A DNA stretch of 29,188 bases from a virus. Made by a program: the position numbers and the translations under genes. The notes below the pieces were generated by a model. It saw only the letters and a program-made list of their open reading frames with translations. It did not search any database and was not told the DNA's origin. Below are positions 5,354 to 21,695 of the stretch, in pieces (positions within the stretch are counted from its first letter, which is position 1; each line of letters starts with the position of its first letter). The stretch spans positions 1-29,188 of the IMG/VR virus record IMGVR_UViG_3300047376_000570, one strand, 5' to 3'.

Positions 5354-6907
5354 ATGGAATTTAATAACCCTAGTGAGATCGTAAAAACTCTCACGTTTGG
5401 CTCAGATGCCAAAAACCAAATTATGCAAGGCGTTGAAAAATTATCAAGCGCAGTAAAGAGCACGTTAGGTGCGTCTGGAAAATGCGTTATATATGAAGAT
5501 GCCTTAGGTAGACCGGTAATAACAAAAGACGGAGTAACCGTTGCAGAAAGCGTAGTCTTATTACACCCGGTCGAAAACATAGGTGCAACATTAATAAAAG
5601 AAGCAGCTAGCAACACAGTCAAGGAGGCCGGTGATGGCACAACCACGTCAACAGTACTAGCTCATTCTTTGCTAAAAACAGTCAACAAACATTTAGATGA
5701 AGAAAAAGTTAGAGAACTTAAAAATGGCATTATTAGCGGTGCTGAAAAAGTTATGGTTTATCTTGACAAAACCAGTATTCCTGTTGAAGGCGAAATGTTA
5801 CGAAGTGTTGCTACTATTAGCTGTAATAACGATACAAGACTTGGAGATAAAATTGGACAAGCTTACGAAAAAGTTGGAAAAAATGGAGTCGTTTTAATGG
5901 AAGAATCAGATACAAACGAAACTTATGTTGAGTTTGTTGATGGAGTGCAATTTGATAGTGGTTTAAAATCACCTCACCTAGCCACCGATAAAAACAAAGG
6001 TTCTGCTACATTAGAAGACCCATACGTGCTTATAGTGTCTTCCCCTATACCTAACATACGAAGAATACAAAATGTATTAGAGTTTGTAATTAAAAATAAG
6101 AAAAGTTTATTAATAGTTGCAAACGTAGAACAACAACCGTACCAGACGTTATTAGCTAATAAAGTAAAAGGTAACATAAGGGTTAATATTGTAGACCTAC
6201 CTGGCTTTGGCCCCACGAAACAGCAAACGCTTGAGGACTTAGCTATGCTAACTGGAGCTAAAATAATAAACGAAGAGTTAGGGGACGATTTAGATCTTAT
6301 AGATCCTAATGTATTAGGTAAAGCATTTAAAGCCGTTACAGATGATAAAAACACTGTTCTGCAGGTTGATGAAGCAAATGAAGAGGTTGCATTAAGAATA
6401 ATAGATGTTGAAAAGCAGATAAGCGAGGAGACTAATCCGTTTTTTAAGAAACAATTAGAGCAAAGGCTATCAATGCTTACTGGTCAAGTCGGTATAGTTT
6501 ATGTTGGGGCAGACTCTAAAGTTGAATTAAAAGAAAAGAAAGATCGAGTTGAAGACGCGATTTACGCGACAAAAGCCGCTTATAAAGAAGGTATAGTGCC
6601 AGGCGGTGGTGTAGCTTTGTTAAACGCTTCTACTTTAGTTAAAGCTAAAAACAAGGGCGAAGAAATATTGCTAGAAGCAATTAAAGCACCGTACGAGACC
6701 ATACTAGAAAACGCCAACATACCAGTTGTATATCCTCAAATGAAAAATAGAGGTATAGACGTTAAAACAGGTAAAGACGTTAATATGGTTAAAGCAGGTA
6801 TCATAGACCCTGTGTTAGTCACAAAGACAGCTTTAAAAAATGCAGTGAGTGTTGTAAATACAATTATATCTGCCGATTGCGTAATCAGTAATAAACGATT
6901 AGCATGA
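5354..6907 (+). CDS. groEL: Phage-encoded GroEL-like chaperonin (Cpn60)
   Basis: A 517-residue group I chaperonin subunit, slightly shorter than bacterial GroEL (about 548). The ATP site is intact: VITKDGVTV puts Asp at residue 59 (equivalent to GroEL D52), GDGTTT at about 93-98 puts Asp at 94 (D87), and RVEDAIYAT puts the ATPase Asp at about 401 (D398), followed by the GIVPGGGVAL hinge segment. The apical domain is recognisable (FDSGLKSPHL, LPGFGP, LAMLTGAKIINEELG). The C-terminus ends in DCVISNKRLA and lacks the Gly-Gly-Met tail that lines the bacterial GroEL cavity. It sits among virion genes and overlaps the groES-like gene by ATGA, so it is probably made late to fold phage proteins such as capsid or fibres. 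The family call is very secure; the substrate is inferred. Confidence 0.96.
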   Translation: MEFNNPSEIVKTLTFGSDAKNQIMQGVEKLSSAVKSTLGASGKCVIYEDALGRPVITKDGVTVAESVVLLHPVENIGATLIKEAASNTVKEAGDGTTTSTVLAHSLLKTVNKHLDEEKVRELKNGIISGAEKVMVYLDKTSIPVEGEMLRSVATISCNNDTRLGDKIGQAYEKVGKNGVVLMEESDTNETYVEFVDGVQFDSGLKSPHLATDKNKGSATLEDPYVLIVSSPIPNIRRIQNVLEFVIKNKKSLLIVANVEQQPYQTLLANKVKGNIRVNIVDLPGFGPTKQQTLEDLAMLTGAKIINEELGDDLDLIDPNVLGKAFKAVTDDKNTVLQVDEANEEVALRIIDVEKQISEETNPFFKKQLEQRLSMLTGQVGIVYVGADSKVELKEKKDRVEDAIYATKAAYKEGIVPGGGVALLNASTLVKAKNKGEEILLEAIKAPYETILENANIPVVYPQMKNRGIDVKTGKDVNMVKAGIIDPVLVTKTALKNAVSVVNTIISADCVISNKRLA

Positions 6908-7161
6908 AAGCAATAAACTATTATGTAATTGTAGATAAAATAAAAGAAGCACCTAAAAAAGTTGCTGGCTTAGAGCTTACTGAAAAACAGGACAAAGAAG
7001 TTCGTTACGTTAAAGGTAGAGTACTTAGTGTTGGTGATCAAATATCTGTAGTAAAAGAAAACGATATTATAAGATACGATAAACACGCTGGGCACGGTAT
7101 TCAAGACGGTGAAAACCTATACTACGTTATCAAAATTAGCGATATAGTTATAGTTGAATGA
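6904..7161 (+). CDS. groES: GroES-like co-chaperonin (Cpn10)
   Basis: An 85-residue protein of Cpn10 length and layout (E. coli GroES is 97). The N-terminal strand YYVIVDKIKE matches DRVIVKRKE. Residues about 16-34 form a candidate mobile loop with a hydrophobic AGLEL in place of the GGIVL that docks on GroEL. KGRVLSVGD (38-45) matches GEVLAVG, VKENDIIRYDKHAG (50-63) matches VKVGDIVIF and what follows it, and the end YYVIKISDIVIVE matches VLIMSESDILAIVE. It overlaps groEL by ATGA and the next gene by ATGA, implying translational coupling. The order is groEL then groES, the reverse of bacterial operons, which argues against simple capture of a host operon. It is likely to cap the phage GroEL-like ring. 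Confidence 0.9.
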   Translation: MKAINYYVIVDKIKEAPKKVAGLELTEKQDKEVRYVKGRVLSVGDQISVVKENDIIRYDKHAGHGIQDGENLYYVIKISDIVIVE

Positions 7162-7598: not shown

Positions 7599-7600
7599 TT

Positions 7601-7759
7601 ATGGCATATAAAGGATACAAAGGATGTGGCCCAAAAAAATTAGGAGCACCAAAGTCACCAACTAAAATATTAAGCGCAATTGCCGGGGCAGTAGCTCCAG
7701 CATTAATTAAAGGCGCTGCAGGGGCATTAGCTGGAAAGTTAATGAGCGGTAAAAAATAA
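7601..7759 (+). CDS. Small cationic, Ala/Gly-rich hydrophobic peptide (52 aa)
   Basis: A short open frame of 52 codons plus stop filling exactly the gap between two certain genes, with 2-base spacers on both sides (taa-tt-ATG and taa-ta-ATG). Residues 1-22 are basic (GYKGCGPKKLGAPKSPTK). Residues 23-48 are hydrophobic and Ala/Gly-rich (ILSAIAGAVAPALIKGAA, then GALAGKLM), and the end is GKK. This looks like one membrane-active or membrane-spanning helix between basic ends. It may be a pinholin-like or other lysis accessory, since the holin lies 2 kb downstream, or a small virion peptide. The cramped fit without overlap supports a real gene. Its function is unknown. Confidence 0.65.
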   Translation: MAYKGYKGCGPKKLGAPKSPTKILSAIAGAVAPALIKGAAGALAGKLMSGKK

Positions 7760-7761
7760 TA

Positions 7762-9537: not shown

Positions 9538-9828
9538 ATGTCTTTTAATATTAAATCTCCTTTCCCTATAACAGATTCTGCTTATGAGTCTAGAAACAGA
9601 AAAATGCGTAGTAAGCATAAGTCTGAGACTGGTAAAACTTTAGGCTCAAGGCAGACAAAAGGCACTGGCAGCCGTAGAGTTTCTTTCGCTTGTAGATTTG
9701 CAGGTATGAAAGGTTCTATGAAAAAAGCTAACGGAGAGCCAACGCCTTATGCTATGGCTTTAAAAAAATGGGGTTTTGGTAGTAGAGAAGCTGCTAGAAA
9801 CTTTTGCCAAAAAAACAAGGGTAAATGA
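9538..9828 (+). CDS. Small basic Cys-containing phage protein
   Basis: A 96-residue basic protein that starts 1 base after the previous stop and overlaps the holin start by 4 bases. The N-terminus MSFNIKSPFPITDSAYESRN has the KSPF feature repeated among neighbours. The core RRVSFACRFAGMKGSMKK resembles, from memory, the S-F-C-A-R-M-x-G-M-K-G motif of a small family common in marine phages (I believe DUF6321-like), followed by ALKKWGFGSREAARNFCQK. The two Cys (in FACRF and NFCQK) might bind metal, but the pattern is not a classical zinc finger. It may be a DNA-binding or internal virion protein. The family resemblance is moderately sure; the function is unknown. Confidence 0.65.
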   Translation: MSFNIKSPFPITDSAYESRNRKMRSKHKSETGKTLGSRQTKGTGSRRVSFACRFAGMKGSMKKANGEPTPYAMALKKWGFGSREAARNFCQKNKGK

Positions 9829-10223
9829 AAAAAATATGGGAGTGGCTTACTGGTAATGTAATAAAAGAGGTTGGTCAGGTTTTAGATAATCTAACAACCA
9901 CTAAAGAAGAAAAGCTAGAAGCCCAAAGATTAATAACTGAGATACTTGAGAAGGCTGATAAAGAAGCCCAAGAACAAGTCACAGCAAGATGGGAGTCGGA
10001 TATGAAATCTGATTCTTTTCTTTCTAAAAATATAAGACCGATGGTCCTTATATATTTGACTGTTATATTTACAGCTTTGTGTTTTTTTGATGGAAACATA
10101 GGTGAGTTTAAAATAGCAGAAGAATATATACCAATATTTCAAACATTGTTAGTTACAGTTTATGGAGCTTACTTTGTAGGTAGATCTTGGGAAAAAACAA
10201 AATCAATAATAAACAACAAATAA
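9825..10223 (+). CDS. Holin, GTA-type three-helix family
   Basis: A 132-residue membrane protein with the layout of the GTA/phage 'holin of 3TMs' family. It has an N-terminal amphipathic segment (IWEWLTGNVIKEVGQVLDNL), a charged helix (about 27-58), then two membrane segments at about 70-88 (NIRPMVLIYLTVIFTALCFF) and 101-119 (YIPIFQTLLVTVYGAYFVG), ending in the basic tail RSWEKTKSIINNK. The N-I-R-P before the first segment and the Y-G-A-Y-F-V-G-R at the end of the second are typical of the family. It should permeabilise the inner membrane at the end of infection. No classical endolysin adjoins it. The start overlaps the preceding gene by 4 bases (ATGA). Confidence 0.88.
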   Translation: MKKIWEWLTGNVIKEVGQVLDNLTTTKEEKLEAQRLITEILEKADKEAQEQVTARWESDMKSDSFLSKNIRPMVLIYLTVIFTALCFFDGNIGEFKIAEEYIPIFQTLLVTVYGAYFVGRSWEKTKSIINNK

Positions 10224-10226
10224 ACA

Positions 10227-10475
10227 ATGGGACAATTCCATAATCAACCAGACTTTGCAACAGAGGCCGAGCTGGTCATAATAGGAACAACAGATGTTAA
10301 AGGATCAATACTTTACATAGGTACAGGTGGAGACATAGAAGTTAGCTTGATAGGCTCTCCATCAGAGTATGTAGTTTTTAAAAATGTAGCTACTGGCTCT
10401 TTTTTACCAGTTGTAGTTTCTGATATTTTAGCAGGCGATCGAACCACGGTTTCAAATGTTATAGCAGTAAAATAA
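10227..10475 (+). CDS. Small beta-rich phage protein, possible virion component
   Basis: An 82-residue protein 3 bases after the holin. It is rich in beta-branched residues and Gly, with the pattern ILYIGTGGDIEVSLIG, VVFKNVATGSFLPVVV and a terminal VIAVK. I recall near-identical openings (MGQFHNQPDFATEA) in small hypothetical proteins of uncultured marine phages. The YIGTGGD and FKNVATGSFLPV strands suggest a compact beta-barrel such as a decoration or spike-tip protein, but this is inference. No signal peptide or membrane segment is present. Confidence 0.65.
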   Translation: MGQFHNQPDFATEAELVIIGTTDVKGSILYIGTGGDIEVSLIGSPSEYVVFKNVATGSFLPVVVSDILAGDRTTVSNVIAVK

Positions 10476-11059
10476 TGGCAATAAGTATAGGAATAACAGG
10501 CACTAGAGACATATCAAAAATTGATAACGTTTCAGTAAGATTTCAGACTTCAATTGATGAAAGACTAGACTCACCTAGAACTGATGGTTGGTTTGCTAAT
10601 AACAATTTGAAATATCAAAAACTTCAATGCAACTTTAGCAACTTAGTTCTACAATCGGGTTTTACTTATAAACTAGTAATAGAAAGGTATAAAAAAAGCA
10701 AAAAACTAGGTAACGAAGGGCGATATGGTGGATATAGAAAAACAAATATAGCTGCAGGTATCAATGGTGTGTTTGCTAGTAGACCAGCAGAGCTGGAAAT
10801 AACTAGCTTAAGTCAATGGTTTGATTTTAGAAATGATTTATATTATTCTAGTTCTTATAACTATCCTTTTCCAAGACCTTCTGGTTTCGGAAAACCATCT
10901 TACCAGCGTAACTCTAGCACTCAGTTTTTTGCTTTTAGAATATCTAAAACAAATGACAGTAGTGGAGTTGTAGAGCTTTCTAAGGTTATAGGTACAGCAA
11001 AACTTATTGGAACCCTCAATGGGAATTATAGTACAGCCTATTGGAATTTAGGCTTATAA
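10475..11059 (+). CDS. Hypothetical protein at the end of the lysis-region block
   Basis: A 194-residue protein whose ATG shares one base with the previous stop (taATG). It appears to be mostly beta strand with many aromatics (YYSSSYNYPFPRP) and a basic middle (ERYKKSKKLGNEGRYGGYRK). There is no recognised motif, signal peptide or membrane helix. It is the last gene before the 420-base gap with the structured RNA, so it probably ends a transcription unit. It may be a minor virion protein like its beta-rich neighbour; there is no stronger evidence. Confidence 0.6.
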   Translation: MAISIGITGTRDISKIDNVSVRFQTSIDERLDSPRTDGWFANNNLKYQKLQCNFSNLVLQSGFTYKLVIERYKKSKKLGNEGRYGGYRKTNIAAGINGVFASRPAELEITSLSQWFDFRNDLYYSSSYNYPFPRPSGFGKPSYQRNSSTQFFAFRISKTNDSSGVVELSKVIGTAKLIGTLNGNYSTAYWNLGL

Positions 11060-11073
11060 AAAAAATTAAAAAC

Positions 11074-11130
11074 ATGAACACGCTAAGGATATATCTTTTT
11101 GATGTATCGTATTGGCTTTTCACTAGATAG
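11074..11130 (+). CDS. Possible 18-residue leader peptide
   Basis: An ATG follows aaaaaaaattaaaaac, the same A-rich context used by confirmed genes here, and opens 18 codons (MNTLRIYLFDVSYWLFTR) before a TAG at 11128. The coding part also contains the hairpin GATATATC-ttttt-GATGTATC (11088-11108). A short translated leader before a structured RNA could serve as an attenuation or translation sensor. It is short enough to be a chance ORF, so it is only a candidate. Confidence 0.25.
   Translation: MNTLRIYLFDVSYWLFTR
11088..11108 (+). terminator. AT-rich hairpin after the 194-residue gene
   Basis: GATATATC (11088-11095) pairs over 8 positions, with one G-U, with GATGTATC (11101-11108) across a TTTTT loop. 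It lies 29 bases past the preceding stop codon. It could mark the end of the upstream transcript, but it is AT-rich and not followed directly by a T-run, so termination is uncertain. Confidence 0.3.
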
Positions 11131-11187
11131 TCATAAGGCGTTTTCTAAAAAAACCCACAAAACTTGCTTGATCTAGATTGTGGCCTG

Positions 11188-11221
11188 CTAGTCTCTGCGC
11201 AAGCAGCGGCGAATTTGCTAC
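11188..11221 (+). repeat. Duplicated GNRA-hairpin motif, copy 1
   Basis: CTAGTCTC, then a GCAA-capped hairpin, then GGCGAA and, after a short spacer, CTAC. Copy 2 at 11289-11320 repeats the framework but differs in the stem bases while keeping pairing and a GNRA loop. Confidence 0.6.
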
Positions 11222-11288
11222 TTTTTATTTCCTGCATTTCGAGTCGGTTTGGACTTTTACCAGGCTAGCGTAGCTGGACAACGTTCAT

Positions 11289-11320
11289 CTAGTCTCCGTG
11301 CGAGCGGGGGCGAACACTAC
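11289..11320 (+). repeat. Duplicated GNRA-hairpin motif, copy 2
   Basis: CTAGTCTC, a GCGA-capped hairpin, GGCGAA and CTAC, aligned with copy 1 about 101 bases upstream. The stem is longer here (six pairs), and the spacer before CTAC is two bases shorter. Confidence 0.6.
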
Positions 11321-11481
11321 CGGGTGTAACAGCTTGGGTGGTGTCAAGCACTGCTACGGTGGTGCGGGTGGTGAGGACGGGTCTTTCGCTGTGCCAAAGG
11401 CCCCTTCGGGGGTCTCGGCAAACGCTAGCCACGGTAATTGTTTTAAAATTAAATAAATAAATTCAACTTAAATAAAATAAA

Positions 11482-11724
11482 ATGGCAAAAAAGCAAAAAT
11501 TAACATCAGACGAATTAGAAGTTTTAACAACTAGTATTAAACAACTAAACTCAATTCAGTCTCAAATAGGTGGATTGCAATTGCAACAACACGAATTACT
11601 ACATACGTTTTCAATTATAAAAGGCAAACTTGATGAGAATCAAAAAGCGCTTCAAGATAAGTATGGAGATAAGGTTATTGATATTAATACAGGAGAGCTA
11701 AGTGAGCCTACTGCGAAAAATTAG
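11482..11724 (+). CDS. Small coiled-coil protein at the start of the packaging operon
   Basis: An 80-residue helical protein that begins 45 bases after the structured RNA, with the leader ttaaataaaataaa. Residues 8-55 have a heptad-like pattern with many Gln and Leu (LTSDELEVLTTSIKQLNSIQ and QIGGLQLQQHELLHTF), followed by DKYGDKVIDINTGEL. I recall the same plan, a Gln/Leu coiled coil then D-K-Y-G and a short strand with Gly, in small proteins upstream of terminase genes in uncultured marine phages. It may be a minor scaffold or assembly factor. The function is unknown; the coiled coil is visible. Confidence 0.7.
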   Translation: MAKKQKLTSDELEVLTTSIKQLNSIQSQIGGLQLQQHELLHTFSIIKGKLDENQKALQDKYGDKVIDINTGELSEPTAKN

Positions 11725-11920
11725 TATTGGAAAAGACTATAAGAATGACGCCATGCACTACTCTGTTGGACAGGAGGTGTATGGCGGTCATACTATAGTT
11801 AATATTATAGAGGAGGAAGAAAAGTATTCTATCTATATACAAAAAGGTAAAGATGTTATACCTTGGAAAGATTTTAATAAAAACATGGCTATAGCTATAG
11901 AGTATAATATAGACTATTAA
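11702..11920 (+). CDS. Small conserved protein upstream of the tandem GroES-like gene
   Basis: A 72-residue protein whose start lies 23 bases inside the previous gene, in another frame, and whose last base is the first base of the next ATG. The core YSVGQEVYGGHTIVNII (about 20-36), then YSIYIQKGKDVIPWKDFNKN and the end IAIEYNID, suggests a small beta-barrel (SH3-like) fold. I recall similar V-G-Q-E-V-Y-G-G-H proteins near terminase genes in marine phages. An alternative start just beyond the overlap is not available until Met18, which would cut the domain close. The function is unknown. Confidence 0.7.
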   Translation: MSLLRKISIGKDYKNDAMHYSVGQEVYGGHTIVNIIEEEEKYSIYIQKGKDVIPWKDFNKNMAIAIEYNIDY

Positions 11921-12519
11921 TGAAAGGTGTTTTTGATTTTATAATCAAACCGGAAAAAAACAGATATAACAATACTAAAAAAATAGGTGAAGTCTCTTTA
12001 ATAACTAACACGGAGCTTCAAAACCATAACTATGTAAGTAGGGTTGGTGTTGTTATTAGTGAGCCAATAAGTAATAATACTAAAATAAAAAAAGGTGATA
12101 AAGTTATAATTCACCATAATGTTTTTAGAAGGTTTAGAGATATAAGAGGTAAAGAAAAAAATAGTAGAAGCTATTTTAAAGAAGACATGTATTTTGTGTC
12201 CGTTGAACAAATATTTGCATATAAACGAAAAAATCAATGGATTCCAATTGAAGGTTTTAATTTCATTAAACCTATAAAAGAAGATAAAATGTTTTCTATT
12301 GATTTTGAAAAACCACTAGTTGGTATTTTGAAATATAAAGATCCTAGCTTAAGCTCTGTTAGCGAGGGCGATCTTGTTGGTTTTAGGCCAGGTATGGAAT
12401 ACGAGTTTGTTATAGACGAGCAAAAACTTTATAGAGTTCCTACAAATCAAATTACAATTAAATATGAATATCAAGGAAACGAAGAAGAATATAATCCAAG
12501 CTGGACACAAGGCGGTTGA
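11920..12519 (+). CDS. Probable tandem (double-barrel) GroES-like protein
   Basis: A 199-residue protein in which two halves each show the Cpn10 pattern. First half: strand FDFIIKPEKN (5-14), a possible mobile loop KKIGEVSLITNTELQ (20-34, with GEVSL where GroES has GGIVL), RVGVVISEP (41-49, cf. GEVLAVG), KIKKGDKVIIHHN (55-67, cf. VKVGDIVIF) and YFVSVEQIFAYK (91-102, cf. VLIMSESDILAI). Second half: FNFIKPIKED (113-122), LVGILKYKD (133-141), VSEGDLVGFRPG (147-158), then EFVIDEQKLYRVPTNQITI (162-180); the loop between its first strands is short. Two fused Cpn10 domains are the plan of chloroplast Cpn20. The gene shares one base with the preceding gene and contains the start of the next. This is a pattern-based fold call; a lone phage-specific beta protein is the alternative. 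Confidence 0.6.
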   Translation: MKGVFDFIIKPEKNRYNNTKKIGEVSLITNTELQNHNYVSRVGVVISEPISNNTKIKKGDKVIIHHNVFRRFRDIRGKEKNSRSYFKEDMYFVSVEQIFAYKRKNQWIPIEGFNFIKPIKEDKMFSIDFEKPLVGILKYKDPSLSSVSEGDLVGFRPGMEYEFVIDEQKLYRVPTNQITIKYEYQGNEEEYNPSWTQGG

Positions 12520-12739
12520 AGAATTAATAAAAGTAGCTAAAGAAGCTATTGTTGATTCAGGAGATGACATAACAGCTGATAGGCTAAAAAATGCAGCAGC
12601 TACTAAAAAACTAGCTATATTCGATGCCTTTGAAATACTAACACGTATACAGGAAGAAGAGGCTATACTTGAAAACAAACCAAAAGAAGAAGTAAAAACA
12701 AAAACTTTTTCTGGTTTTGCTGAAAAAAGATCTAGATAA
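12464..12739 (+). CDS. Probable terminase small subunit
   Basis: A 91-residue helical protein directly upstream of the large terminase; its last base is the first base of the terminase ATG. It begins 56 bases inside the preceding gene in another frame, and no later Met is available before the conserved helices, so this start is likely. Residues 8-35 and 38-75 form long charged helices (KNIIQAGHKAVEELIKVAKE and DRLKNAAATKKLAIFDAFEI), with the tail FSGFAEKRSR. Size and position fit a small terminase, which recognises phage DNA and regulates packaging. I recall similar proteins just ahead of terminase genes in marine phages. No clear helix-turn-helix is seen, so the role rests on context. Confidence 0.6.
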   Translation: MNIKETKKNIIQAGHKAVEELIKVAKEAIVDSGDDITADRLKNAAATKKLAIFDAFEILTRIQEEEAILENKPKEEVKTKTFSGFAEKRSR

Positions 12740-14949
12740 TGTACGAACAGACTTTATATAGCGTTGTAACGCCGATAAAGAAAAATACTATATCGAGACT
12801 TAATAAGGGAAAAAAATGGAGCTACGGTTATAACAAAGAGCATGATGTCGTTGTTATAAGCAAAACAGGTCAAATAGGTGAAATATATAATATACAAAAC
12901 CTTAAAATAGCTTTACCCAAAGCACCTGTTAAAATAGATAAATCAAATGAAAAATGGATCGCCGAAGAATATCCAAAAGAACTAAAGCAGATACAAAATG
13001 TGTTTGAATGGAGAGATTACCCAGATGATTTCAAGGCGAGATGGGAGAAATATATAGATGAACAATTTAAAAAAAGAGAAGAAGGTCATTGGTTCAATAA
13101 CAGAGGCTTGGCTACTTACATTACTGGTACTCATTTTATGTACCTGCAGCACTCCAAGATTGACGTTGGGAAGCCAGATTTTAGAGAAGCAAACAGATTA
13201 TTCTTCATATTCTGGGAAGCTTGTAAAGCCGACTCTCGCTGTTACGGAATGTGCTACCTTAAAAATAGACGATCTGGATTCTCTTTCATGTCATCAGCTG
13301 AGACAGTTAATTTGGCAACGATCACGTCTGACGCTAGATATGGTATATTGTCCAAGTCTGGATCTGATGCTAAAAAAATGTTCACAGACAAAGTCGTACC
13401 AATATCAGTCAACTACCCGTTCTTTTTTAAGCCCATCCAAGACGGTATGGATAGACCCAAAACCGAACTTGCCTATAGGATACCGGCCTCGCGTCTTACC
13501 AGAAAATCAATACAAAACAAAAAAGATCAAGAATTACTTGAGGGATTAGATACTACTATTGACTGGAAAAATACAGGTGACAACAGTTATGATGGTGAGA
13601 AACTAAAACTACTTGTGCATGACGAGAGTGGTAAATGGGAGAGACCTGACAACATACTGAATAACTGGAGAGTAACTAAAACCACGCTTAGACTAGGATC
13701 TAGAATTATCGGCAAATGCATGATGGGGTCAACGTCTAATGCTTTAGATAAAGGTGGTGAAAACTTTAAAAAACTTTACAATGACTCAGACGTTACAAAA
13801 AGAAATAGAAATGGACAAACTAAGTCAGGATTATATTCTTTGTTCATACCTATGGAATGGAATTACGAAGGATTCATTGACGATTATGGAATGCCTGTAT
13901 TCGAAAACCCACCAGAAGATTGTGTTGGCCCACACGGAGACGCTATCGAAGTCGGGGTTATTGAACACTGGGATAATGAGGTAGAAGGCTTAAAAGGTGA
14001 TCAAGATGCTTTAAATGAGTTTTATAGACAGTTTCCTCGCACGGAGGAACACGCGTTTAGAGATGAAACAAAAAACAGTATATTTAATTTAGTAAAAATA
14101 TACGAGCAAATAGATTACAACGAAGATATAAAAAGTTCTAGCAACGTAACAACCGGTAGCTTTAGCTGGGAAAACGGAATAAAAGATACTAAAGTAATGT
14201 TTAGCCCTAATCCTAGCGGTAGATTTAAAGTTTCTTGGGTTCCAAGGATTACACTGCAGAATAAACAAGTAATTAAGAATGGTGTAAGGTATCCAGGTAA
14301 CGAGCATGTTGGAGCGTTTGGTTGTGATAGTTACGATATATCAGGCACTGTTGATGGTCAAGGCTCAAAAGGAGCATTACACGGTTTAACTACTTTTAGT
14401 ATGGAAGATGCGCCGCCTAATAGCTTTTTCTTAGAGTATGTAGCTAGACCACAAACAGCAGAGATGTTTTTTGAAGATGTATTAATGGCTTTAGTATTCT
14501 ACGGAATGCCTATACTCGCAGAAAACAATAAGCCTAGGTTGTTGTATTATTTAAAAAGAAGAGGTTATAGAGGTTACTCTATGAATAGGCCAGACAAAAG
14601 CTATAACAAGCTATCTGTGTCTGAAAAAGAAATAGGTGGTATACCTAACTCCTCTGAGGATATTAAGCAAGCTCACGCAGCTGCTATTGAAACATATATA
14701 CAAAAACACGTAGGTGTTACAAGTGAAGGAGAATATGGTAACATGTACTTTAATCGTACATTAAATGATTGGGCTAAGTTTGATATAAACAAAAGAACAA
14801 AGTTCGATGCCGCTATAAGCTCAGGTTTAGCAATAATGGCCTGTAATAGACACTTGTATAGACCTAATCCGTTAGTTCAAAGACCTAAATTAAATTTACA
14901 TATTGCAAAATACAAAAACGCCGGTTCAATATCGGAAATAATAAAATAA
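12739..14949 (+). CDS. terL: Terminase large subunit (packaging ATPase/nuclease)
   Basis: A 736-residue packaging motor protein. The ATPase part shows a deviant Walker A, YLKNRRSGFSF (residues about 173-183), in which the usual GK(S/T) is replaced by GFS. It also shows a clear Walker B, LLVHDE, with Asp295-Glu296, and a coupling-type MGSTSNALDKGG segment at about residues 329-340. The nuclease part begins near GAFGCDSYDI (about 527), where the Asp is a likely metal ligand. Crass-like and other Bacteroidetes phage terminases also have R-R-x-G-x-S type Walker A motifs, as I recall. It docks on the portal, the next gene, to pump and cut DNA. The family call is strong from motifs plus the small terminase/portal/capsid context. 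Confidence 0.88.
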   Translation: MYEQTLYSVVTPIKKNTISRLNKGKKWSYGYNKEHDVVVISKTGQIGEIYNIQNLKIALPKAPVKIDKSNEKWIAEEYPKELKQIQNVFEWRDYPDDFKARWEKYIDEQFKKREEGHWFNNRGLATYITGTHFMYLQHSKIDVGKPDFREANRLFFIFWEACKADSRCYGMCYLKNRRSGFSFMSSAETVNLATITSDARYGILSKSGSDAKKMFTDKVVPISVNYPFFFKPIQDGMDRPKTELAYRIPASRLTRKSIQNKKDQELLEGLDTTIDWKNTGDNSYDGEKLKLLVHDESGKWERPDNILNNWRVTKTTLRLGSRIIGKCMMGSTSNALDKGGENFKKLYNDSDVTKRNRNGQTKSGLYSLFIPMEWNYEGFIDDYGMPVFENPPEDCVGPHGDAIEVGVIEHWDNEVEGLKGDQDALNEFYRQFPRTEEHAFRDETKNSIFNLVKIYEQIDYNEDIKSSSNVTTGSFSWENGIKDTKVMFSPNPSGRFKVSWVPRITLQNKQVIKNGVRYPGNEHVGAFGCDSYDISGTVDGQGSKGALHGLTTFSMEDAPPNSFFLEYVARPQTAEMFFEDVLMALVFYGMPILAENNKPRLLYYLKRRGYRGYSMNRPDKSYNKLSVSEKEIGGIPNSSEDIKQAHAAAIETYIQKHVGVTSEGEYGNMYFNRTLNDWAKFDINKRTKFDAAISSGLAIMACNRHLYRPNPLVQRPKLNLHIAKYKNAGSISEIIK

Positions 14950-14953
14950 ATAT

Positions 14954-17380
14954 ATGGCTGAGTCAGTTATAAATAGTTTTTTTCCAAGCCAAGTAGCTAG
15001 TGACAAAGAAAAAATGTCACAGGACTATGGTTTAAGAGTTGGTAGAGCGATTCAAGACGAGTGGTTTAAGTCTGACTCTGGTACTAGTAGGTTCAAGAGT
15101 AATCAAAATACATTTCATAGATTAAGATTGTACTCTAGAGGTGAGCAGTCAATACAAAAATACAAAGATGAATTATCTATTAACGGTGATTTGTCTTATT
15201 TAAACTTAGACTGGAAACCTGTGCCTATTATACCTAAGTTCGTTGACATTGTTGTTAATGGAATATCAGAAAGAGCTTTTGACATAAAAGCGTACTCTCA
15301 AGATCCGTACGGAGTTGAAAAAAGAACAAAGTACATGGAGGCTATAGTGCGCGACATGCAGACTAAAGATATAAATAACTTTGTAGAAAAAGAGTTTGGA
15401 ATAAATCTTTTTGAATCTAACAAAAAAACACTTCCAGAGTCAAAAGAAGAGCTAGAGGTTCATATGCAGCTTTCCTATAAGCAAGCTGTTGAAATGGCTG
15501 AAGAACAAGCTATAGAGACGTTACTAAAAAGTAATAACTATGATCTAACAAAGAAAAGAGTTATTTACGATATAGCCACTATAGGTATTGGAGCTGTTAG
15601 AAATCAATTTTCAAAGTCAGAAGGTGTAACGGTAGATTACGTAGATCCTTCTAACCTTGTTTGGTCTTATACAGAGTCACCGTATTTTGATGATATATAT
15701 TATTGCGGTGAAGTTAAAAACGTACCAATTAATGAACTTAAAAAACAGTTTCCAGAATTAACAGATGAAGACTTAAAAAACATAGCGACGCAAGGATTCC
15801 AGAATAACGGATTTTACGATAGAAGCCTGACAAATAATAACACATCAGATTCTAACACTGTTCAGGTTCTTTATTTTAACTACAAAACTTATATGAACGA
15901 AGTTTATAAAGTTAAAGAAACAGCCACAGGAGCGTCTAAGGTGTTGCTTAGAGACGATCAGTTTGATCCACCGGTTGAAGTGCTTGAAAAGCAGTTTGGA
16001 AAATTATCAAGGTCCTTAGAAGTCTTATATGAAGGCGTTTTAGTCCTAGGAACTAACAAGCTTTTAAAATGGGAAATAGCTAAAAACATGATGAGGCCTA
16101 AGAGTGATAACGCTAAGGTTTTAATGAACTATAGCATTGTTGCTCCTAGAATGTACAAAGGTAAAATTGAATCTTTAGTGAGCCGTATTACTGGTTTTGC
16201 TGATATGATTCAATTAACACATCTAAAGCTGCAGCAAGTTATGTCAAGAATGGTGCCAGACGGCGTATATCTTGACGCTGATGGTTTGGCTGAAATAGAT
16301 TTAGGCAACGGGACGAATTACAATCCTCAAGAGGCGTTAAATATGTTTTTTCAAACAGGTTCTGTTATTGGTAGATCATTTACACAGGAAGGCGATATGA
16401 ATCCTGGTAAAGTTCCTATTCAAGAAATAACTAGTGGATCTGGAGGAAATAAATTAGCAGCTCTTATAAACACGTACAACTATTACCTGCAAATGATTAG
16501 AGACGTCACGGGTCTCAATGAAGCTAGAGATGGTAGTACTCCAGATTCTAAAGCTCTAGTAGGTGTTCAAAAAATAGCTGCAGCAAATAGCAATACAGCC
16601 ACTAGACATATATTAGAAGGTGGTTTGTTTCTAACATCTCAATTAGCTGAGTGTTTGTCTTTGAGAATATCTGACATTATAGAATACTCACCAACTAAAG
16701 AAGCTTTTATACAAAAGATAGGCTCTCACAATGTTGCTACTTTATCAGAAATGTCTAACTTACATTTATATGACTTTGGTATATTCATAGAATTAATGCC
16801 TGACGAAGAAGAAAAAGCAATGTTAGAAAACAACATACAAACAGCATTGTCAGCTGGTTTAGTAGATTTAGACGACGCTATAGATATAAGAGAAATAAAA
16901 AACTTAAAGCTAGCTAATAGACTTTTAAAAATAAGACGTAAGCAAAAGCAGGAAAAAGATCAAATTATTCAACAGCAGAACATTCAAGCTCAAGCGCAGG
17001 CTAATGCTCAAGCTCAACAGGTTGCTGCTCAGTCGGAAATACAAAAGAATCAAGCTATAACAGGTCAAAAAGTTCAACTAGCTCAATTACAGGCTCAAAT
17101 AGATCAAGCTAAAGTAGACAAAGAAGTTGAAGCTAAAATAAAGTTGATGCAACTAGAGTTTCAAATGAACATGCAATTAAAAAACATGGAAATTGAAAAT
17201 TTTAAATCAAAAGAAGGTTTCAAGGAAGATCGTAAAGACGAAAGAACTAAGATACAAGCATCACAGCAAAGCGAGCTTATAAACCAGAGACAAAACTCAT
17301 CACCTCCAAAAAGTTTTGAATCTTCTGGAAATGATATATTAGGAGGTGGATTTGACTTAGGTTCTTTCGAACCTAGGTAA
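14954..17380 (+). CDS. Portal protein
   Basis: An 808-residue protein 4 bases after the terminase and before the scaffold and capsid genes. Its N-terminal half has portal-type features: early Trp/Arg helices (VGRAIQDEWFKSD), DLSYLNLDWKPVPIIPKFVD (about 76-95), DYVDPSNLVWSYTESPYFDD (about 229-248) and LVSRITGFADMIQLTHLKLQQ (the long stem/clip helix region). From about residue 655 it has a long Gln/Ala-rich coiled coil (QQQNIQAQAQANAQAQQ and following), then a Gly/Ser-rich tail. The coiled coil could form the portal barrel or contact internal proteins, as in podovirus portals of this size. It forms the dodecameric vertex through which DNA enters and to which the connectors attach. Confidence 0.85.
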   Translation: MAESVINSFFPSQVASDKEKMSQDYGLRVGRAIQDEWFKSDSGTSRFKSNQNTFHRLRLYSRGEQSIQKYKDELSINGDLSYLNLDWKPVPIIPKFVDIVVNGISERAFDIKAYSQDPYGVEKRTKYMEAIVRDMQTKDINNFVEKEFGINLFESNKKTLPESKEELEVHMQLSYKQAVEMAEEQAIETLLKSNNYDLTKKRVIYDIATIGIGAVRNQFSKSEGVTVDYVDPSNLVWSYTESPYFDDIYYCGEVKNVPINELKKQFPELTDEDLKNIATQGFQNNGFYDRSLTNNNTSDSNTVQVLYFNYKTYMNEVYKVKETATGASKVLLRDDQFDPPVEVLEKQFGKLSRSLEVLYEGVLVLGTNKLLKWEIAKNMMRPKSDNAKVLMNYSIVAPRMYKGKIESLVSRITGFADMIQLTHLKLQQVMSRMVPDGVYLDADGLAEIDLGNGTNYNPQEALNMFFQTGSVIGRSFTQEGDMNPGKVPIQEITSGSGGNKLAALINTYNYYLQMIRDVTGLNEARDGSTPDSKALVGVQKIAAANSNTATRHILEGGLFLTSQLAECLSLRISDIIEYSPTKEAFIQKIGSHNVATLSEMSNLHLYDFGIFIELMPDEEEKAMLENNIQTALSAGLVDLDDAIDIREIKNLKLANRLLKIRRKQKQEKDQIIQQQNIQAQAQANAQAQQVAAQSEIQKNQAITGQKVQLAQLQAQIDQAKVDKEVEAKIKLMQLEFQMNMQLKNMEIENFKSKEGFKEDRKDERTKIQASQQSELINQRQNSSPPKSFESSGNDILGGGFDLGSFEPR

Positions 17381-18603: not shown

Positions 18604-20007
18604 ATGGCAGGATTTACAGGGAGCGCAGGAGCTCTCGCACATTTAACTCCACGACCTATTAAAGGTTTATTTGGAGACAACTATCTCAGCGTTGCTGATA
18701 TGGATTTTACACAACAGTTTTTACCAGAAGTATATGAGAAAGAAGTAGAGCGATATGGAAATCGTACTATCTCTGGTTTCTTACGTATGGTAGGTGCTGA
18801 AATGCCTATGGCTTCAGACGTTATTACTTGGTCTGAGCAAGGGCGTTTACACATTGCTTATGATGATGCAGCTGTTGCATCTTCAACTAGCTTAACTTTA
18901 CCAGCTGGCCACTTGATTGGAAAAGGAATGACTATTGTTGTTTCTAAAGGTTTCGACACTCAGAAAGCTTACGTACAAGACGTAGTTGGTCAGACTGTAA
19001 CTGTAGATACTTACGGATCAGCTTCAGGACTTGTAATGACTGGATCTGACGTTAAAGTATTTGTATACGGTTCTGAGTACGCTAAAGGAACTTCACAAGC
19101 TGGTAATTCAGTTGACGCTTCTTTCACAACTTTTAGCAACAAGCCAATTATTCTTAGAGATAAGTATAATGTAAATGGCTCTGATGTTGCTCAAATTGGT
19201 TGGGTAGAAGTAACTACTGAAGCTGGAACATCTGGTTACCTTTGGTACTTAAAATCTGAGCACGAAGCTCGTATCCGTTTTGAAGATCAACTTGAAATGG
19301 CTATGGTTGAAGCTGAAAAATCAACAGATGGTTCAGGTAACGTTCGTAACATTACTGCTGCTTCTGGATTTGGTGGCGGTGCTAACGTAACAGGATCTGA
19401 AGGTTTATTTGCTGCTTTGGAAGAAAGAGGGTTAGTTTATGCTGATGCTGATTTCGACGGAGGCACTGGATTAGCCGAGTTTGATACTATTTTAGCTGAG
19501 CTTGACAAGCAGGGATCAATTGAAGAAAACATGCTTTTCTTAGATCGTGCAACTTCTTTGTCTATTGACAATATGTTAGCGCAGCAAAATTCTTACGGAG
19601 CAAACGGAACATCTTACGGTGTATTCGACAACTCTGAAGACATGGCACTTAACCTTGGTTTCTCAGGATTCCGAAGAGGTTCTTATGACTTTTACAAAAC
19701 AGACTGGAAATACTTGAACGATTCTACTACACGTGGATTAGTTGCTGATATTGAAGGTGTTTTAGTACCTGCTGGAACTTCAACGGTTTACGACCAACAA
19801 CTAGGACAGAACATTTCAAGACCTTTCTTACACATCCGCTACAGAGCTTCTGAAGCTGATGATCGTAGATTGAAGTCTTGGGTTACTGGCTCTGTTGGTG
19901 GAAACTACACCTCTGATGCTGACGAAATGAACGTTCATTTCTTGTCAGAAAGAGCTCTGTGTGTTCAAGCTGCAAATAACTTCGTGTTGTTGAAAGCAAC
20001 ATCGTAA
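18604..20007 (+). CDS. Major capsid protein
   Basis: A 467-residue protein after the scaffold-like gene, starting behind 'taaaaaataataaa'. The N-terminus (AHLTPRPIKGLFGDNYLSVA) and the body (FLPEVYEKEVERYGNRTISG, ITWSEQGRLHIAYDD) resemble major capsid proteins of uncultured marine phages as I remember them. Charged stretches such as EHEARIRFEDQLEMAMVEAE suggest the long spine helix of an HK97-type fold. Codon use differs from its neighbours: 13 of 20 Arg codons are CGN (nine CGT), against 2 of 14 in the next gene, where AGA dominates. This fits the most highly expressed protein. A strong hairpin follows the stop. No separate maturation cleavage site is evident. Confidence 0.85.
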   Translation: MAGFTGSAGALAHLTPRPIKGLFGDNYLSVADMDFTQQFLPEVYEKEVERYGNRTISGFLRMVGAEMPMASDVITWSEQGRLHIAYDDAAVASSTSLTLPAGHLIGKGMTIVVSKGFDTQKAYVQDVVGQTVTVDTYGSASGLVMTGSDVKVFVYGSEYAKGTSQAGNSVDASFTTFSNKPIILRDKYNVNGSDVAQIGWVEVTTEAGTSGYLWYLKSEHEARIRFEDQLEMAMVEAEKSTDGSGNVRNITAASGFGGGANVTGSEGLFAALEERGLVYADADFDGGTGLAEFDTILAELDKQGSIEENMLFLDRATSLSIDNMLAQQNSYGANGTSYGVFDNSEDMALNLGFSGFRRGSYDFYKTDWKYLNDSTTRGLVADIEGVLVPAGTSTVYDQQLGQNISRPFLHIRYRASEADDRRLKSWVTGSVGGNYTSDADEMNVHFLSERALCVQAANNFVLLKATS

Positions 20008-20014
20008 GGTAACT

Positions 20015-20055
20015 GTAAGTTTTACCCCTGATGAAGCTTCAGGGGTAACTCTTAC
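20015..20055 (+). terminator. Strong hairpin after the major capsid gene
   Basis: TTACCCCTGA (20022-20031) pairs perfectly with TCAGGGGTAA (20039-20048) around a 7-base loop. Flanking GTAAG (20015-19) and CTTAC (20051-55) add five pairs across a 2x2 internal loop. It is followed by mixed T-rich sequence rather than a clean T-run. It probably attenuates or terminates capsid transcription, or protects the capsid mRNA 3' end, so that the abundant capsid message is set apart from downstream genes. Confidence 0.7.
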
Positions 20056-20084
20056 TATTATTAACATTTTTATTATATTATATC

Positions 20085-20852
20085 ATGGCAAAAACAAAAA
20101 AAGAACCAGTTTTAGATACCTGGGAAATAAAAGATAGATTATATACTCTAAAGAACAATAAAAGACCTTTAGTACTTTCAATACCATCAAAACACACGGC
20201 TAGAAAACCCTTGTTGTTTTTTGATGAAGGCAAAGGCTATAATAGAGAGTTAAAGTATGCTACAAATCAGCCTACTCCTTTTGTGGACGAACACAAGGGA
20301 ACCTCAACTTTAGGTCGCATAGTATTTAGAGATGGCGCGTTAAATGTGCCAAAAAATAATCAAGTGTTACAAAAACTTCTTTCACTTTACCATCCAATGG
20401 CTGATAAGGTTTACGAAGAATACAAACCTCAGCAACAAGCCGCTAATGAGTTAGACTGGATTGAAGCTGAAATACAAGCTTTAAATTTAGCTAAGTCTTT
20501 GAGTATAGACGAAATAGAGGCTATACTTAGAGTTCATTTTGGATCTAAGGTAAATGAATTATCAAGCAGTGAGCTTAAAAGAGATGGTTTGATATTCGCG
20601 AAACGAAACCCTATATTATTTGTAGAGTTGGCGAATGATGACAATGTACAGCTTAGAAACTTTGGAATAAAAGCGGTTGAAGCTAGAATAATTAAGTTGT
20701 CTGCTGATCAAAGAACTTTCACTTACGGTGATGGTGATAGAAAGATCATGGCTGTCCCTTTTGACGAAAATCCATACTCGGCATTAGCTGCGTGGTTTAA
20801 GACTGACGAAGGAGTTGAAGTTTATAAAGCAATTGAAAAAAGACTTAAATAG
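20085..20852 (+). CDS. Conserved protein following the capsid gene, possibly structural
   Basis: A 255-residue protein bracketed by two intergenic hairpins. The N-terminal half is a mixed domain (TWEIKDRLYTLKNNKRPLVL, then SKHTARKPLLFFDEGKGYNR). The middle is helical and acidic (NELDWIEAEIQALNLAKSL), and the C-terminus (FDENPYSALAAWFKTDEGVE) is distinctive. I recall a family with these features immediately downstream of the capsid gene in many marine phages, of unestablished function. It may be a head-associated or decoration protein. Start and length are secure. The isolation between two hairpins suggests separate control of its dose. Confidence 0.7.
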   Translation: MAKTKKEPVLDTWEIKDRLYTLKNNKRPLVLSIPSKHTARKPLLFFDEGKGYNRELKYATNQPTPFVDEHKGTSTLGRIVFRDGALNVPKNNQVLQKLLSLYHPMADKVYEEYKPQQQAANELDWIEAEIQALNLAKSLSIDEIEAILRVHFGSKVNELSSSELKRDGLIFAKRNPILFVELANDDNVQLRNFGIKAVEARIIKLSADQRTFTYGDGDRKIMAVPFDENPYSALAAWFKTDEGVEVYKAIEKRLK

Positions 20853-20863
20853 TCACTCATAAT

Positions 20864-20892
20864 GGTTAGGCCATCTAATGGGTGGCCTAATT
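20864..20892 (+). terminator. Hairpin between the 255-aa gene and the connector genes
   Basis: TTAGGCCA (20866-20873) pairs perfectly with TGGCCTAA (20883-20890); two G-U pairs extend it to 20864-20892. It is followed by 'attataaataaaa' and has no T-run, so it may serve mRNA stability or processing as much as termination. Confidence 0.55.
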
Positions 20893-20909
20893 ATTATAAA
20901 TAAAAAAAT

Positions 20910-21695
20910 ATGAGCGTAAGTATAGATACTGTTTACCAAAGAGTATTGAGCATACTCAATAAAGAGCAACGAGGGTATGTTACGCCCCAGGAATTTAATT
21001 TGTTCGCTAATCAAGCACAGCTAGATTTGTTTGAACAGTATTTTTATGATATAAACCAATTTGGAAGAATACCAGGTAATGATACAGAGTATTCTGATAT
21101 GTTAGATTTATTAAATAAAAAAATAGCAATATTTGAAACGCAGGAGCAGTTAGCTTATAACACTTCTAACGCATACTTTGAAACACCTGCTAACATGTAC
21201 AGACTTGGTACTGTTATATTTACAAATGTAACTACTAGAGATCTCTACCCTTCCCCTACTCAACCAGCAAACTTCCCGGTTGATAATCCTGTAATACACA
21301 GACAAACTCTAAGCGAAGACATAGAAGCAGAAAGAATAAATGGCAATGAGCTTTTATACATAAACTCTTCTCCGCTAACTAAACCAAAAAACATTAGACC
21401 TATTTACGTTTCTAAAAAAGGAAATATAAACGTATATGGAGATCAAGAAATAACATCTGATGTTAAATGCAACTACATTGCTAAACCAGCAAAAGTTAAC
21501 TGGGGATACACTGTAGTTAATGGAAAAGCACTATACAACGCTGGCACTACGGTTAATTTTGAGCTACATGCTTCGGAAGAAGTTGAGTTGGTGTTTAAAA
21601 TACTACAGCTAGCAGGTATAAGTAGTAGAGCTCTAGACGTCTACCAATTAGCCGGCCAAGAAGAAATGAAAAATTTACAACAAGAAAAAGCATAA
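20910..21695 (+). CDS. Putative head-tail connector protein
   Basis: A 261-residue protein behind the leader ttataaataaaaaaat. The start VYQRVLSILNKEQRGYVTPQ and then EFNLFANQAQLDLFEQYFYD are helices that resemble, from memory, connector-region proteins of uncultured marine phages. The second half is beta-rich (NINVYGDQEITSDVKCNYIA, VNFELHASEEVELVFKILQ), ending in a helix. Position after the capsid and before a T7 gp11-like candidate fits an adaptor that joins portal and tail tube. There is no enzymatic motif. The structural role is likely; the exact ring is not known. Confidence 0.65.
   Translation: MSVSIDTVYQRVLSILNKEQRGYVTPQEFNLFANQAQLDLFEQYFYDINQFGRIPGNDTEYSDMLDLLNKKIAIFETQEQLAYNTSNAYFETPANMYRLGTVIFTNVTTRDLYPSPTQPANFPVDNPVIHRQTLSEDIEAERINGNELLYINSSPLTKPKNIRPIYVSKKGNINVYGDQEITSDVKCNYIAKPAKVNWGYTVVNGKALYNAGTTVNFELHASEEVELVFKILQLAGISSRALDVYQLAGQEEMKNLQQEKA

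Follow-up and report, generated by a model that had tools for sequence, protein, structure and literature searches.

The window analyzed here is a whole virus record of 29,188 bases with an overall GC content of 0.359. It encodes a terminase (12739-14949) and a portal protein (14954-17380), both identified by PHROG family matches. In the phage collection, the terminase matched those of Flavobacterium, Cellulophaga, Tenacibaculum, and Maribacter phages, and among viral contigs we found 80 loci with terminases 76-92% identical to it. Given these matches to flavobacterial phages, the source of the window is probably a phage infecting marine flavobacteria. A GroEL-like protein (5354-6907) and a small GroES-like protein (6904-7161) were recognized by eye from the sequence. 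A second GroES-like protein (11920-12519, phrog_13932) adjoins the terminase, and a GroES gene beside the terminase is also present in related Flavobacterium and Cellulophaga phages.

Between the open reading frames (ORFs) at 10475-11059 and 11482-11724 lies a gap of 422 nt (11060-11481), the longest found when the plus strand was scanned for ORFs of 55 aa or more; the runner-up is 7599-7761. The GC content of the window over 150 nt reaches its maximum here, with 0.627 in the stretches starting at 11281 and 11291. An earlier note, made from the letters of the window, had described an abrupt GC-rich island in the only large gap and the absence of a long ORF. Both descriptions are correct, and its count of 97 G or C in 155 bases was right in substance. 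The inner ORFs reach at most 60 aa from stop to stop; four short ORFs of the gap had no Pfam match, and the 60-aa ORF had no tblastn match in phages. The number of CTAG sites in the window is near that expected by chance.

The features of the locus are listed in Table 1. The terminase gene begins about 1.3 kb downstream of the GC-rich element. The ORFan gene on its upstream side is missing, together with the RNA, from the relatives examined, and its structure prediction was unusably poor (mean pLDDT of 45.7).

TABLE 1 Features at the locus, with the z scores of RNA folding energy for the domains
Feature	Position	Strand	z on + / z on −	Basis or remark
ORFan gene, 194 aa	10475-11059	+		Just upstream of the RNA; no relative found
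Possible 5′ domain, AT-rich hairpin with two inner stems (GAA.ACGCU ... GGCGU.UUC)	11074-11146	+	−3.3 / −1.9	Minimum free energy (MFE) fold; membership uncertain
Domain 1, long hairpin with internal loops and a GCAA (GNRA)-capped end stem	11151-11250	+	−2.5 / 0.0	Pair probabilities mostly >0.8
Module copy 1, CUAGUC-hairpin(GCAA)-GGCGAA	11188-11213	+		Internal direct repeat
Domain 2, GC-rich, branched, closing helix 11257-11271/11422-11437	11251-11443	+	−4.3 / −2.6	Helix pair probabilities ~1
Module copy 2, CUAGUC-hairpin(GCGA)-GGCGAA	11289-11314	+		Internal direct repeat
Hairpin with loop UGUAACAG	11315-11343	+		Fold, pair probabilities
C(UACG)G-capped hairpin	11348-11365	+		Pair probabilities ~0.99
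C(UUCG)G-capped hairpin	11392-11420	+		Pair probabilities 0.74-0.94
AT-rich leader of the 11482 gene, like the leaders of relatives	11444-11481	+		Mostly unpaired

Fold and strand of the element

Folded as RNA, the whole gap has an energy of −140.3 kcal/mol (z of −4.9). In a coarse scan of folding energy, the z score of the stretch 11151-11443 was −3.9 on the plus strand and −1.0 on the minus strand, and with DNA energies the values were −1.3 and −0.9, which are not unusual. The predicted fold of 11150-11445 contains five hairpin loops (CGCAAG, UGCGAG, UGUAACAG, CUACGG, and CUUCGG), two of them of the GNRA class, two of the C(UNCG)G class, and one of another kind. The earlier note had considered such loops to be far more frequent than chance would give, and this view is supported by the fact that none of 480 dinucleotide shuffles had four GNRA or C(UNCG)G loops (4 of 5 loops in the element), and the preference of the folding programs for such loops applies to the shuffles as well. 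The fold of the minus strand has no loop of these classes. The RNA z scores, the loops, and the DNA controls agree in indicating folding beyond chance on one strand.

Folding energy of this order is not unique to the element, since the coding stretch 11601-11800 reaches a z score of −3.7. What distinguishes the element is its loops. That coding stretch includes a long hairpin (11733-11800), located within the first part of the 11702 gene, which is strongly conserved. With another hairpin domain at 11076-11145 (z of −3.3), the element may extend over 11074-11443. The top strand is predicted to fold far better as RNA than expected by chance over a GC-rich length of about 290 to 370 bases.

Duplicated GNRA-hairpin module

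A 26-nt module, CTAGTCTCYGYGCRAGCRGSGGCGAA, occurs twice in the element, once in each main domain, and the copies are identical at 21 of 26 positions. All five differences preserve the GNRA hairpin: they comprise a two-sided compensatory change from U-A to C-G, a change from C-G to U-G, a substitution at the R of the GNRA loop, where either purine is allowed, and the replacement of a U.C mismatch by U-G. When five random base changes were made to copy 1, only 0.6% of the results retained the GNRA loop and equaled or exceeded copy 2 in pairing. In the reverse direction, starting from copy 2, 11% performed as well as copy 1 (26% if transitions were favored). This view of covariation is limited to two internal copies with one two-sided change, and the duplication lends moderate support to the structure.

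Transcription and the downstream leader

No flavobacterial promoter pattern was found at the gap, and no hairpin with a T run, as in a terminator, was seen at the element. Positions 11445-11481 have a mean unpaired probability of 0.82, and the start of the 11482 gene is mostly open. The folding ensemble contains about 10 pairs between the element and the downstream sequence 11444-11620, so that the domains may depend to some extent on the mRNA. Elsewhere in the window, stable hairpins are located at 20007-20085 and 20852-20910, after the probable capsid gene and after the gene that follows it. UUCG- or UACG-capped hairpins with similar spacing are found in several relatives, apparently at corresponding places (15910 and 16798 in L154; 9269 and 10159 in L150). 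These hairpins near the capsid gene are perhaps terminators or mRNA-end structures of the phage group.

Absence of the element from related loci

The genes flanking the gap are conserved in relatives, and blastn of the gap against the 80 loci with related terminases gave no match. Where the sequence upstream of the 11482 homolog could be read, it mostly consists of an AT-rich leader of 11 to 71 nt. Of the few longer gaps shown, some contain coding sequence on inspection (L002 and L016, for instance, have the end of the holin gene there), and others were fixed stretches taken where there was no upstream ORF. In the two nearest relatives, almost nothing separates the holin gene from the 11482 gene. 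The alignment with L002, whose terminase is 91% identical, covers 9824-10202 of the window and resumes at 11445, leaving an interruption of 10203-11444. In L014, a gene whose product begins like that of 10227 (MGQF.NQPDF; a weak phmmer match with an E value of 0.0019) directly follows the holin gene, and neither the ORFan nor the RNA is found after the holin gene. The slot from the holin gene to the 11482 gene (10203-11444) is variable in relatives, being nearly empty in L002 and L016 and holding other genes elsewhere.

The element is absent at this place from relatives with terminases 77-92% identical to that of the window, an absence that concerns this place only, many of the relatives being contig fragments. 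The earlier note had named absence without consequence for synteny as something that would refute the RNA. Such absence is what we found, with synteny intact, and we read it as pointing to an accessory RNA and not to an unreal one. Gain of the stretch by the window and loss by the relatives would look alike in these comparisons.

Searches for homologs and comparison with known RNAs

Searches beyond this place were also negative. A covariance model of 11263-11430, which was built from a single sequence, is of limited reach, and had no positive control, gave no further match in about 1 Mb of the window plus related sequence and none in 40 related records. In phages and plasmids, blastn of the gap gave only short chance matches. 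Pattern scans were run on viral contigs (six) and on species genomes (one); two were empty, and the matches of the others, when read or screened, were due to chance. The strict module pattern used on species genomes, including flavobacterial ones, had a single chance match, in Sulfitobacter. In short, no homolog was found by searches whose reach is limited for a diverged RNA, in collections that may omit records very near the window.

Several other places were inspected. GC-rich upstream places in L007, L013, L044, and L046 look protein coding, mostly collagen-like or glycine-rich, and GC-rich gaps elsewhere in relatives (five loci) contained one tRNA and otherwise had no match to Rfam or to the model. 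The related record MW202828 has no annotation over 444 nt, an AT-rich stretch that resembles an overlooked coding sequence. The intergenic stretch at 1350-1640 of L143, a related phage, ends in a tRNA-like sequence (GGTTCGATTCCTGCCACGTCC), which Rfam did not report as a tRNA.

The Rfam search proposed in the earlier note was run and gave no family for the element at gathering thresholds, which supports its idea of an undescribed RNA. When 10950-11600 (651 nt) was scanned up to an E value of 10, the only family reported was c4-a1b1, the targets of the C4 antisense RNA. It resembles the CUAGUCUCCG stretch and the sequence that follows (11289-11340; E value of 0.042), but the score is 18.4 bits against a cutoff of 46.7, and the E value rises to 0.23 in a 3.5-kb scan. 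In the window, there was no match to C4 RNA, and complementary sites were at chance level.

Phages and prophages encode GOLLD and ROOL, two classes of large structured noncoding RNA whose functions are poorly understood; GOLLD RNAs are in many cases longer than 800 nt, and members of both classes are often located near tRNA islands (PMC12286853). The element differs from them in its size (about 290 to 370 nt in a gap of 422 nt), in matching neither covariance model, and in lying in a window with no tRNA, the window being a genome fragment. The earlier note had likened a possible trans-acting RNA to these two; membership in either class is not borne out by the Rfam scan up to an E value of 10, and GOLLD and ROOL serve at most as analogs. 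Among known motifs, STAXI is the closest in style: it has a structural module repeated at least twice and frequent UUCG tetraloops, which argue for RNA over DNA, and its repeated units, of which there are usually three, form pseudoknots and lie near genes whose products handle DNA (PMC2864571). The element shares the repeated module and the UUCG loop; however, its repeat, folded with programs limited to pseudoknot-free structures, is a GNRA hairpin, and STAXI had no Rfam match up to an E value of 10. A type III toxin-antitoxin system was set aside on inspection, the RNA following the ORFan with no array of short repeats.

Discussion

What we observed is a nonrandom fold on one strand, with special loop types and an internal duplication, at a place where relatives have no such element. 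With confidence slightly short of an even chance, we favor an accessory structured noncoding RNA that entered the late operon at a variable slot, is made as part of the late transcript, and acts in trans; the open leader and the lack of a promoter or terminator at the element are the reasons for this preference. The RNA would have been gained downstream of the holin gene, ahead of the small gene heading the packaging operon, and would be transcribed from the plus strand without a promoter or terminator of its own. It would comprise two domains or more (11151-11250 and 11251-11443; the 5′ domain at 11074-11146 may belong to it), each main domain carrying one GNRA-hairpin module. The stable UNCG-capped stems could let the RNA persist, perhaps after trimming, and it may then bind a host or phage partner in trans while being dispensable for the basic phage cycle. 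Action in trans is suggested by just three features, namely, the complexity of the element, its open leader, and its optional occurrence. It is conceivable, though more doubtful, that the element represents an undescribed class of phage noncoding RNA with two domains, each bearing a CUAGUC-hairpin-GGCGAA module, that acts in trans during infection. Strand specificity, the special tetraloops, and the lack of an Rfam family fit the undescribed phage RNA of the earlier note, whereas the link to packaging that it had also suggested is not supported. Against the accessory RNA in trans, only a single sequence is known, so no homolog backs the structure, and its place before the operon would also fit a leader acting in cis. 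The lack of a promoter or terminator at the element and the predicted pairs with downstream sequence also weigh against it.

Such a leader, the main rival, would be a 5′ untranslated region that controls the translation, stability, or read-through of the 11482 operon or protects its mRNA. The element shares the strand of the operon, immediately precedes it, and abuts the leader, it is expected to form the downstream pairs described above, and intergenic hairpins exist elsewhere in this phage group. However, in relatives the same genes are expressed with short leaders that lack the element, the start site of the 11482 gene is mostly open, and neither a terminator-like hairpin nor a match to a riboswitch family was found, making this explanation rather unlikely. 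A fragment of host or other foreign DNA that is now functionless, whether it came from a chromosomal noncoding RNA or from GC-rich DNA of another kind, would explain a GC-rich island in an AT-rich genome with an orphan gene alongside. We consider it quite unlikely, as the strand-specific RNA loops and the coherent fold suggest present or recent selection as RNA, and the module pattern met only the Sulfitobacter chance match in species genomes.

HEARO and other guide-like RNAs of mobile elements are multistem intergenic RNAs, and the gap might hold a mobile or selfish element of this kind, such as a transposon guide RNA lacking its nuclease or the remnant of an intron-like ribozyme. Its presence here and absence from the corresponding place in relatives, and a GC content foreign to the genome, are consistent with this. 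Yet there was no match to HEARO, group I or II introns, or any other such Rfam family up to an E value of 10, a group I intron core was not found by eye, the repeat scan revealed no element-wide terminal inverted repeats, no partner nuclease was recognized among the neighboring genes scanned, and no second copy was found; a mobile element is therefore very unlikely. The phage phi29 pRNA is encoded near packaging genes, and the earlier note had cited it together with pac and cos sites as precedents for a role in DNA packaging, which the proximity to the terminase gene might suggest. However, the element is missing at this place from relatives whose terminases are closely similar and whose flanking genes are the same, its fold as DNA is ordinary, and it does not match pRNA, so a packaging site or motor RNA is highly improbable.

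If the accessory RNA acting in trans is real, a marine flavobacterial phage would have an RNA gene in a slot that is empty or holds protein genes in its relatives. Singletons of this kind escape discovery by covariation, which depends on numerous homologs. The element provides a defined sequence to seek in marine metatranscriptomes and would test whether the accessory regions of phages house RNA genes besides protein genes.
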